From NCBI GenBank assembly GCA_035533095.1, contig DATLUM010000137.1, positions 1 to 64,000 on the forward strand: a stretch of 64,000 bases of DNA, given 5' to 3'. Positions 30,649-33,271 of the stretch are shown piece after piece (the first letter of the stretch is position 1; each line of letters begins with the position of its first letter). This DNA comes from Acidimicrobiales bacterium. Lineage in GTDB: Bacteria; Actinomycetota; Acidimicrobiia; Acidimicrobiales; Palsa-688. The notes below the pieces were generated by a model. The model did not search any database and was not told the DNA's origin. It saw nothing but the letters and a program-made list of their open reading frames with translations. The translations under genes were made by a program, and so were the position numbers.

Positions 30649-31179
30649 GTGGCTCGACTCGAGGACGTCTTGGCTCCCGGCTACCTCGATGGCCTGGAGG
30701 GCTGGTCGCTGGCAGATGTACGAACGCGCCGCAACGAAGCTACGGAAGTCGAGACCGGGCTGTCCTACCTCCGCCGGATCATCCAGGGCCGCTTGGACAT
30801 CCTCTTGGCGGAGCAGCGGCTCCGGCGCGACGGCGAAGGTCACAGCGACCTGACGTCTCTGGTCGAGGAACTTCCGACCATCCTGTCCGACCACGTGCAC
30901 GCCCCGGGCCTGGGTCGCCTGCCCGCTCTGATGGGCCCCGGTGAGCTGGATCCGGAGCTGGAGGCACGCCTCGAAGCAGTGATACCGGCGAGCCACCTCG
31001 CGAAGATCGACTCTCTCGAGGACTCCGAGGTGTCGTCCGCCTGCGAGGGCCTGGTCGAACTCGAGAAGACCGTTTCCTCGCAGAGGCGGTCGGTGTTCGA
31101 AGTGCTCGACCGGCTCCAGGACGAGATCGTGCGGCGGTACGGCACCGGCGAGGCGACGGTCGACAGCCTGCTGCCGTGA
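30649..31179 (+). CDS. RsiG-like c-di-GMP-binding anti-sigma factor
   Basis: This 176-residue helical protein resembles Streptomyces RsiG, the anti-sigma factor that holds sigma WhiG when c-di-GMP is bound. Known RsiG proteins carry E(x)3S(x)2R(x)3Q(x)3D motifs. Here E35-S39-R42-Q46-D50 fits the motif exactly, and a second copy, E139-S143-R146-F150-D154, fits except that Gln is Phe. The opening VLAPGYLDGLEGWSLADVRT also fits the family. No sigma factor gene is in the window. The stop overlaps the next start by four bases (GTGA). Assignment rests on the motif and layout; binding is inferred. Confidence 0.78.
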   Translation: MARLEDVLAPGYLDGLEGWSLADVRTRRNEATEVETGLSYLRRIIQGRLDILLAEQRLRRDGEGHSDLTSLVEELPTILSDHVHAPGLGRLPALMGPGELDPELEARLEAVIPASHLAKIDSLEDSEVSSACEGLVELEKTVSSQRRSVFEVLDRLQDEIVRRYGTGEATVDSLLP

Positions 31180-31547
31180 AGTCCGCAACTCGGCCACGGC
31201 TGGTGCTCGTGGTCGACGACGACGAGATGATCCGCCGGTTGGTGCGGGCGGTGCTGGAGGCCGACGAGTTCGAGGTCGTCGAGGCCCGCGACGGCGCGTC
31301 CGCCTTGAGCCTTGCATCCGAGAGACAACCCGCCGTCGTCGTGCTCGACATCATGATGCCCGGTATCGACGGCGTCGAGGTGTGCCGGCGGCTCGATCAC
31401 GACCGGGCCAAGGTCGTCATCCTGACGGCGCGCGACGACCCGCGCCTCGAGGACGAGTGCAGGGCCGCAGGCGCGGATGCGTTCCTCACCAAGCCGTTCT
31501 CGTCGGTGCAGCTGCTCGACCTGATAGCAGAGATGCTCCCCGCCTGA
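31176..31547 (+). CDS. Single-domain response regulator receiver
   Basis: This 123-residue protein is a stand-alone CheY-like receiver: LVLVVDDDEMIRRLV gives the acidic pocket, VVVLDIMMPGIDGVEV the phospho-Asp near residue 60, VVILTARDD the conserved Thr, and FLTKPFSS the Lys. There is no output domain, so it probably signals by protein contact. GTG start overlapping the RsiG-like gene by four bases, so the two are co-translated, linking a phosphorelay input to a c-di-GMP-type anti-sigma protein. No kinase is adjacent. Confidence 0.92.
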   Translation: MKSATRPRLVLVVDDDEMIRRLVRAVLEADEFEVVEARDGASALSLASERQPAVVVLDIMMPGIDGVEVCRRLDHDRAKVVILTARDDPRLEDECRAAGADAFLTKPFSSVQLLDLIAEMLPA

Positions 31548-31615: not shown

Positions 31616-32005
31616 ATGAACGACTTTCCCGATCCCTGGCGAGAGCTCGGCGAGTTCATCCGGGAGCAGCGATCCGTCGCGCGCCTGTCGGTGCGCCGGT
31701 TGTCCGACATGGCGGGTATATCGAACCCTTACCTCAGCCAGATCGAGCGCGGCCTGCGCCGGCCGTCTGCGGAGATACTGCAGCAGATCGCCAAGGCGCT
31801 GCGCATTTCGGCGGAGACCCTTTACATCCGCGCCGGGATACTCGACCCACGCGAAGGAGACGGTGACCTGACTCACGCGATCCTCGGCGAACCGGGATTG
31901 ACGGAGGATCAGAAGCAGACGCTGCTGCGCATCTACCTGTCGTTCAGGCGGGAAAACGAGACGGCCCGTCCCTCCAAGCCCCCGTCCGACGAGGAGGCCG
32001 GGTAG
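31616..32005 (+). CDS. XRE-family helix-turn-helix regulator
   Basis: This 129-residue protein has an HTH_3 domain: LGEFIREQRSVARLSVRRLS, then DMAGISNPYLSQIERGLRRP with the recognition helix near residue 40, and EILQQIAKALRISAETLY. It resembles short actinobacterial XRE regulators preceding mshA-like genes. The C-terminal half (LTEDQKQTLLRIYLSFRREN) is helical and may mediate dimerisation. ATG at 31616; the next gene starts three bases after its stop. Confidence 0.88.
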   Translation: MNDFPDPWRELGEFIREQRSVARLSVRRLSDMAGISNPYLSQIERGLRRPSAEILQQIAKALRISAETLYIRAGILDPREGDGDLTHAILGEPGLTEDQKQTLLRIYLSFRRENETARPSKPPSDEEAG

Positions 32006-32008
32006 GTC

Positions 32009-33271
32009 GTGCCCCGCATCGCAGTGCTGTCGATGCACACTTCTCCGCTCGCGCAGCCGGGTACGGGCGACGGCGGCGGCATGAACGTGTACGTCCGGGA
32101 ACTGTGCGCGGCGCTCGCGCGCTCGGGCGTGGAGTGCGAGGTGTTCACGCGGACCGAGTCGGTGGACGCTCCGAGCGTTGTCCAGGTCGAACCGGGTTTC
32201 CGGGTGCACCACGTCCCCGCCGGACCTCGATGCGCGGTCGCCAAGGAGTCGCTGTCGGAGCTGGTGCCGGCGTGGACGCGCGGCGTCGGCGGCAGGCTCG
32301 CGGCGCTGGCGGCCGCCGGCCGCCAGGTCGACGCGATCCATGCCAACTACTGGCTCTCGGGCCTCGCTGGCCACGCGCTCAAGCACGAGCTCGAGCTGCC
32401 GTTGCTCGTCACCTTCCACACGCTCGACCGCGTCAAGGCGGACGCCAGCCCGGAGGAGATCTCTTTCCAGGAACCCGCGCGCCGCGCCATCGCCGAATCG
32501 CAGATAGTCGGGTGCGCGGACGCGGTGGTCGCGTCCTGCAGCGTGGAAGCGCAGCAGCTGGTCGATCTCTACGGCGCCAACCCCGATCGGATCGTCACGG
32601 TCGCTCCCGGCGTCGACCACGCGTTCTTCAGCCCGGGTGACCGGGGGCAGGCGCGCCGCGCCACGCGGCTGGAGGAAGCCGCCCCGGTGGTCGTATTCGC
32701 CGGCCGCATCCAACCGCTCAAGGGCCCGACCGTCGCGGTGGAAGCGCTCGCACAGATCCGCTCCCGCGGCCGCGACCGCCTGCGCGAGACCGGCCTCGTG
32801 CTCATCGGCGGCCCGAGCGGTCCGCACGGTGACGCGGAGATGGCGGAGGTCGAGCGCCGCATCCGGGTGTACGGACTCGACGACGCAGTGAGGTTGCTGC
32901 CGCCACAGCCACACGAGCGCCTCTCCACCTACTATCGGGCCGCGGACGTGTGTGTCGTGCCGAGCCACTCCGAGTCGTTCGGACTAGTGGCGCTCGAGGC
33001 GGCCGCGTGCGGGATCCCAGTAGTGGCGTCGGCGGTTGGGGGACTGACCACTCTGGTCGACCACGGGCGCACCGGTTACCTGGTCGAAGGCCGGGATCCG
33101 GCTGACTACGCCGCCCCGCTGGCGGCGCTCCTGGGCGATCCGCAGACCGCGGCGAGGATGGGAGATGCGGCTGCGTCGAGGGCCGGCGACTACACGTGGA
33201 AGGCTGCCGCGGCCGACCTCTGGGAGCGAGTCGAGGCCCTGACCAGCGCCGTTCTGGTCGCCTGCGGATAG
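32009..33271 (+). CDS. mshA: D-inositol-3-phosphate glycosyltransferase (MshA-like, mycothiol step 1)
   Basis: This 420-residue GT4 glycosyltransferase matches MshA, which joins UDP-GlcNAc to inositol-phosphate to begin mycothiol synthesis. Key sequence: HTSPLAQPGTGDGGGMNVYV near residue 10 (MshA-type sugar/phosphate loop), ANYWLSGLAGHAL near 112, FAGRIQPLKGPTVAVEAL near 231, and the GT4 E-x7-E motif ESFGLVALEAAACGIPVVAS near 325. GTG start three bases after the XRE stop. A general sucrose/lipid GT4 role is possible but the N-terminal loop favours MshA. Confidence 0.85.
   Translation: MPRIAVLSMHTSPLAQPGTGDGGGMNVYVRELCAALARSGVECEVFTRTESVDAPSVVQVEPGFRVHHVPAGPRCAVAKESLSELVPAWTRGVGGRLAALAAAGRQVDAIHANYWLSGLAGHALKHELELPLLVTFHTLDRVKADASPEEISFQEPARRAIAESQIVGCADAVVASCSVEAQQLVDLYGANPDRIVTVAPGVDHAFFSPGDRGQARRATRLEEAAPVVVFAGRIQPLKGPTVAVEALAQIRSRGRDRLRETGLVLIGGPSGPHGDAEMAEVERRIRVYGLDDAVRLLPPQPHERLSTYYRAADVCVVPSHSESFGLVALEAAACGIPVVASAVGGLTTLVDHGRTGYLVEGRDPADYAAPLAALLGDPQTAARMGDAAASRAGDYTWKAAAADLWERVEALTSAVLVACG

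Follow-up and report, generated by a model that had tools for sequence, protein, structure and literature searches.

A twin-motif RsiG gene overlapping a receiver gene in Acidimicrobiales: a putative c-di-GMP switch for type IV pili with a candidate link to c-di-GMP turnover

Described RsiG–WhiG systems and the window locus

The anti-sigma factor RsiG and the sigma factor WhiG have been described as the sole pair of their kind that c-di-GMP is known to target (PMC8325347). The solved complexes show the fourth residue of the RsiG motif, published as Gln or His, stacked against a guanine base (at its motif-1 counterpart published RsiGs vary, with His allowed), and WhiG touching c-di-GMP through K57, G61 and R62 (PMC8325347). 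The RsiG of Rubrobacter radiotolerans has a single motif and acts as a homodimer in a (RsiG)2-(c-di-GMP)2-WhiG complex, and there a flagellar-type WhiG promoter precedes type IV pilus genes; no receiver/HD-GYP operon is described in that organism (PMC8325347). How the c-di-GMP signal ends at the RsiG–WhiG complex is an open question (PMC13232838). In Streptomyces the GGDEF-EAL phosphodiesterase RmdB antagonises RsiG at WhiG, acting locally and by binding WhiG itself, a mechanism other than the one considered here (PMC13232838).

The rsiG locus described here comes from an Acidimicrobiales bacterium (Palsa-688 in GTDB, assembly GCA_035533095.1), and ‘the window’ denotes the whole stretch of DNA that was analysed (64,000 nucleotides, positions 1 to 64,000 of contig DATLUM010000137.1, forward strand). 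Like the known twin-motif RsiG–WhiG systems of sporulation, it pairs an RsiG with two motifs, equal in length and alike in predicted fold, with a WhiG that keeps the K/G/R contacts. It differs from them in three respects: RsiGs of this order mostly carry His, Phe or Leu rather than Gln at the motif-2 stacking position, a receiver gene (with an HD-GYP gene in relatives) lies in the rsiG operon, and the probable target is type IV pili, not sporulation. A WhiG-type promoter before pilus genes is shared with Rubrobacter, whereas the twin-motif RsiG and the operon are not. As with RmdB, a c-di-GMP phosphodiesterase appears locally linked to the RsiG–WhiG complex, but here the candidate is an HD-GYP enzyme that relatives encode within their rsiG operon, together with a receiver. 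The component protein families are all known; in the literature we found, which covers few subscription papers, no rsiG operon is described that contains a receiver or an HD-GYP gene, and this is consistent with the preliminary description of the locus, whose author knew of no report of the arrangement.

Taking the comparative evidence together, we consider it probable that this locus encodes an anti-sigma switch that is armed by c-di-GMP and controls type IV pili, joined to a phosphorylation-gated c-di-GMP-removal module whose enzyme is missing here. Sequence comparison establishes that the protein is an RsiG, that a WhiG with the contact residues is present, that the operon series exists, that the promoter is conserved and that the receiver is under selection; c-di-GMP binding, the holding of WhiG, control of the pili and the receiver's target are inferred. 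If so, the rsiG-receiver-HD-GYP operon of the order would be a concrete, genetically linked candidate answer to the question of how the signal is ended.

RsiG, its second motif and its WhiG partner

The rsiG gene lies at 30649..31179 on the forward strand (176 aa, GTG start), and its product matches the Pfam family RsiG (PF22802) in two stretches at 2.5e-21 (75.6 bits against a 27-bit cut-off); a search of NCBIfam returned no family for it. Streptomyces venezuelae RsiG (6pfj) is the top phmmer match in the PDB (1.8e-13, residues 19-175). An AlphaFold2 model based on a 45-sequence alignment (pLDDT 84.8) has RsiG chains of 6pfv and 6pfj as its top four Foldseek matches (E 2.9e-05 to 3.6e-04), and VIA scores 6pfv at a Z of 14.0, where the next unrelated entry reaches 8.6; both comparisons predict the antiparallel coiled coil of 6pfj and 6pfv. 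By sequence and predicted fold the gene is thus a genuine RsiG, as had been proposed at the outset, and the Pfam, 6pfj and Foldseek matches exclude a chance match as the origin of its motifs. It is the only RsiG above cut-off in its own genome, with no second copy above cut-off elsewhere in it.

Motif 1 (codons 35-50, 30751..30798, forward strand), read from the translation and alignment as E35-x3-S39-x2-R42-x3-Q46-x3-D50, is intact, in exact agreement with the RsiG motif and with the preliminary description. Motif 2 (codons 139-154, 31063..31110, forward strand) reads E139-x3-S143-x2-R146-x3-F150-x3-D154 and so has Phe at the base-stacking position, the one departure among the ten residues of the two motifs from E-x3-S-x2-R-x3-Q-x3-D. 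The preliminary description called this motif altered, and Phe150 is indeed there, but the word overstates the case: when the ten motif residues were tabulated for 81 RsiG proteins of the same order, 51 had His at the fourth position of motif 2, 24 had Phe, four Leu and two Gln, the Phe being spread over many families. In an alignment of 32 sequences E139, S143 and R146 show no variation and D154 almost none. Because the stacking position varies in this way across the order while the rest of the motif hardly does, we regard Phe150 as normal variation, and in view of its frequency among these relatives we rejected motif decay. A defective Phe150 motif would leave RsiG to bind c-di-GMP through one half-site, to form a homodimer as the single-motif Rubrobacter RsiGs do, or to bind none; the published choice of Gln or His (PMC8325347) and the Leu of four relatives could be read that way. 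We think this very unlikely, given the many families that share Phe and the preserved remainder of motif 2; Phe may, moreover, still stack on guanine, and the model predicts a monomer folded as an antiparallel coiled coil, as in the twin-motif form.

One possible objection, that the genome might lack a WhiG-type sigma factor, falls away because it encodes one, a protein of 257 aa that scores 320 bits to S. venezuelae WhiG and 165 bits to the best FliA. The contact residues K57, G61 and R62 are kept in its segment PLVKFVAGRV, as they are in those relatives where the segment can be read clearly. With about 20 matches to GGDEF, the genome also shows that c-di-GMP signalling is present. Among 119 genomes of relatives from the same order (the named ones mostly Acidimicrobiales or Acidimicrobiia), RsiG occurs in 87 and WhiG, scored as present at 170 bits or more, in 83; 79 have both, eight RsiG only, four WhiG only and 28 neither (Fisher p = 5.6e-16, an optimistic value since related genomes are not independent). 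Several of the eight genomes with RsiG and no recognisable WhiG are incomplete.

The whiG gene (L005/L209) lies on another contig than rsiG, beside a dprA-like gene. The placement of rsiG outside a whiG locus, to which the preliminary description drew attention, is therefore real, but it does not mark a different system, as RsiG and WhiG co-occur. Separation of the two genes is ordinary in this order, where rsiG has a conserved neighbourhood of its own: a phosphoglycerate-mutase-like gene, a moaD-like gene, rsiG, an XRE regulator, an mshA-like gene and proC. The XRE/HTH_3 regulator (31616..32005, forward strand; Pfam HTH_3, 1.9e-12), a conserved neighbour and possible partner, follows rsiG and precedes the mshA-like gene in 73 of the 116 related loci with enough flank. 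The glycosyltransferase gene at 32009..33271 (forward strand), which we take to be mshA-like from its sequence and synteny, is a conserved syntenic marker outside the switch; of the 107 related loci with enough flank, 90 have a match to it on the same strand, downstream of rsiG. In one genome (G109) rsiG occurs twice, on separate contigs (L069 and L079) and each time next to an XRE gene; the second could be a true copy or reflect a mixed assembly (contamination 5%).

By analogy with the solved complexes, high c-di-GMP would lead the two helices of RsiG to hold a c-di-GMP dimer and clamp WhiG. When c-di-GMP falls, WhiG would be freed to transcribe its regulon, which most likely includes the pilM-pilO operon discussed below.

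The receiver gene and the operon series

As the preliminary description stated, rsiG is translationally coupled by overlap to a stand-alone receiver gene (31176..31547, forward strand; 123 aa, GTG start), the start of which overlaps the rsiG stop by 4 bp (GTGA) and the product of which matches Pfam Response_reg (PF00072) at 3.6e-28. A 4-bp overlap of this kind is possible in most receiver-bearing loci. Within the deduplicated set of loci that we fetched and named, RsiG has no adjoining receiver at 94 of the 121 classified loci, and of the 27 that bear one, 17 carry all three genes of an rsiG-receiver-HD-GYP series. The remaining ten have a receiver without the HD-GYP gene (eight loci, the window and L043); one of the receiver-only loci, L048, holds a degraded copy, and another, L078, has a different hydrolase in the HD-GYP place. 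Acidiferrimicrobium sp. IK (locus L134) is among the receiver-only relatives. This last gene (genome G071), downstream of the receiver, apparently encodes a metallo-beta-lactamase-fold enzyme.

The HD-GYP protein matches Pfam HD_5 at 1.1e-34 as well as solved HD-GYP phosphodiesterases, and it keeps the HD motif at all 17 loci and HHE..DG.GYP at 16, the exception (L052) reading HHEMWSGDGYP. Pairwise distances of the receiver correlate with those of RsiG (Mantel r = 0.71, n = 26), as do those of the HD-GYP protein (r = 0.74, n = 17), with none of 5000 permutations as high in either case, which fits linked inheritance. The three locus states are nevertheless scattered on the RsiG tree, requiring at least 16 changes, so that repeated loss or block transfer must have occurred. 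At the window locus there is no HD-GYP gene, nor did we find a close copy in the same assembly, where the nearest relative is 39% identical and shares a 720-aa frame with a GGDEF domain.

Response regulators of the RpfG type combine a receiver with an HD-GYP phosphodiesterase and so convert phosphorylation into a c-di-GMP signal. In the order examined here an anti-sigma operon encodes the receiver and the HD-GYP protein separately, and the two may act as a two-gene version of such a regulator; the window receiver, with no HD-GYP output domain at its locus, is not itself of the RpfG type. As the gene that follows is an HD-GYP phosphodiesterase at 17 loci, the comparative data point to c-di-GMP turnover as the receiver's link, and they suggest that the switch has been joined to its own c-di-GMP-removal unit, the activity of the HD-GYP protein being predicted. 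In relatives with the full operon, the phosphorylated receiver probably controls hydrolysis of c-di-GMP by the HD-GYP enzyme, which would lower c-di-GMP near the RsiG–WhiG complex and release WhiG.

The receiver of the window most likely still functions, since its five phosphorylation residues are intact (the acidic pair D14/D15, the acceptor D58, T84 and K106) and dN/dS against five receiver-only relatives is 0.09-0.20. The same two observations speak against the receiver being a functionless relic that operon structure has kept in place since a receiver-HD-GYP pair was lost. That the HD-GYP gene is missing from the locus, and that a search of the genome yielded no close copy, is what a relic would predict, as is the decay of the receiver in a sister pair of loci; on balance we find this account quite unlikely for the window. 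In that pair (L048 and L050) the decaying receivers lie between rsiG and the XRE gene, and rsiG is intact in both: the central part of the L048 receiver, including the phospho-acceptor Asp, has been deleted in frame, and the L050 frame is broken by a frameshift. Since the gene decays there, the receiver is dispensable in those two lineages.

Alternatively, the phosphorylated receiver might bind RsiG or WhiG directly and change the complex, in which case RsiG would sense the coincidence of phosphorylation with c-di-GMP, as the preliminary description envisaged. The 4-bp overlap of the two genes, the correlated distances of their products and the conservation of the receiver under purifying selection in lineages without HD-GYP at the locus would all suit such contact, for which RmdB, as an antagonist of RsiG at WhiG in Streptomyces, offers a precedent (PMC13232838). 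Yet RsiG evidently works without a receiver, given that it has none beside it at 94 of 121 loci, and the partner gene at 17 of 27 receiver-bearing loci is HD-GYP, which points at c-di-GMP turnover; direct binding therefore strikes us as unlikely. On the reading we prefer, a switch whose receiver is tied to c-di-GMP removal, the target of the window receiver is probably either a different c-di-GMP enzyme or the RsiG–WhiG complex. We think it unlikely that two things hold together: that the rsiG operon carries a phosphorylation-gated c-di-GMP-removal unit by which a two-component signal disarms the anti-sigma factor locally, and that the receiver alone gates RsiG–WhiG directly where the locus has no enzyme, as in the window.

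The pilM promoter and the type IV pilus genes

Flagella were set aside as an output of the switch, as a search of the genome found no flagellin. A genome-wide scan with the flagellar/WhiG consensus TAAA-N15-GCCGATAA at no more than one mismatch gave two sites in 3.44 Mb against one for the reversed control, and no exact consensus match with 14-16 spacing was present in the genome. One of the two sites, TAAA-N15-GCCGATAT with one mismatch, lies 42 bp upstream of the pilM start, and pilM is followed by pilO. Such counts would be insufficient on their own; what makes the pilM site convincing is its position and its conservation in relatives. Specifically, 15 of 19 family members keep it 37-60 bp before pilM, at no more than two mismatches and for the most part with 15 bp of spacer, and there the sequences of spacer and flanks have diverged. 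In more distant genomes a promoter precedes pilM in two of 11 at the same tolerance, and a genome without RsiG and WhiG by the searches used (G041) has no pilM promoter. The conserved promoter and the lack of a detected flagellin make the type IV pilus the likely target of WhiG, as in Rubrobacter.

Pilus control, known from the single-motif Rubrobacter RsiGs, would in that case occur in a lineage with the twin-motif form as well. This suggests that it is not tied to single-motif RsiG, and it may be the older function. A search for further WhiG-type promoters gave no clear one before rsiG itself, where sites at no more than two mismatches were present in three of 125 cases, at scattered positions (none in one shuffle of each), or in the vicinity of eight diguanylate cyclase loci, which yielded one two-mismatch match. 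The other genome-wide match at no more than one mismatch (L252:4674, reverse strand) precedes a 252-aa ORF by about 8 bp.

The contig that carries pilM and pilO also has a prepilin peptidase gene upstream and encodes two PilB-type ATPases with an N-terminal MshEN domain (L249:11740-15078). MshEN is a known c-di-GMP-binding domain, and its presence on these ATPases means that c-di-GMP may act on the pili at two levels, transcription and assembly.
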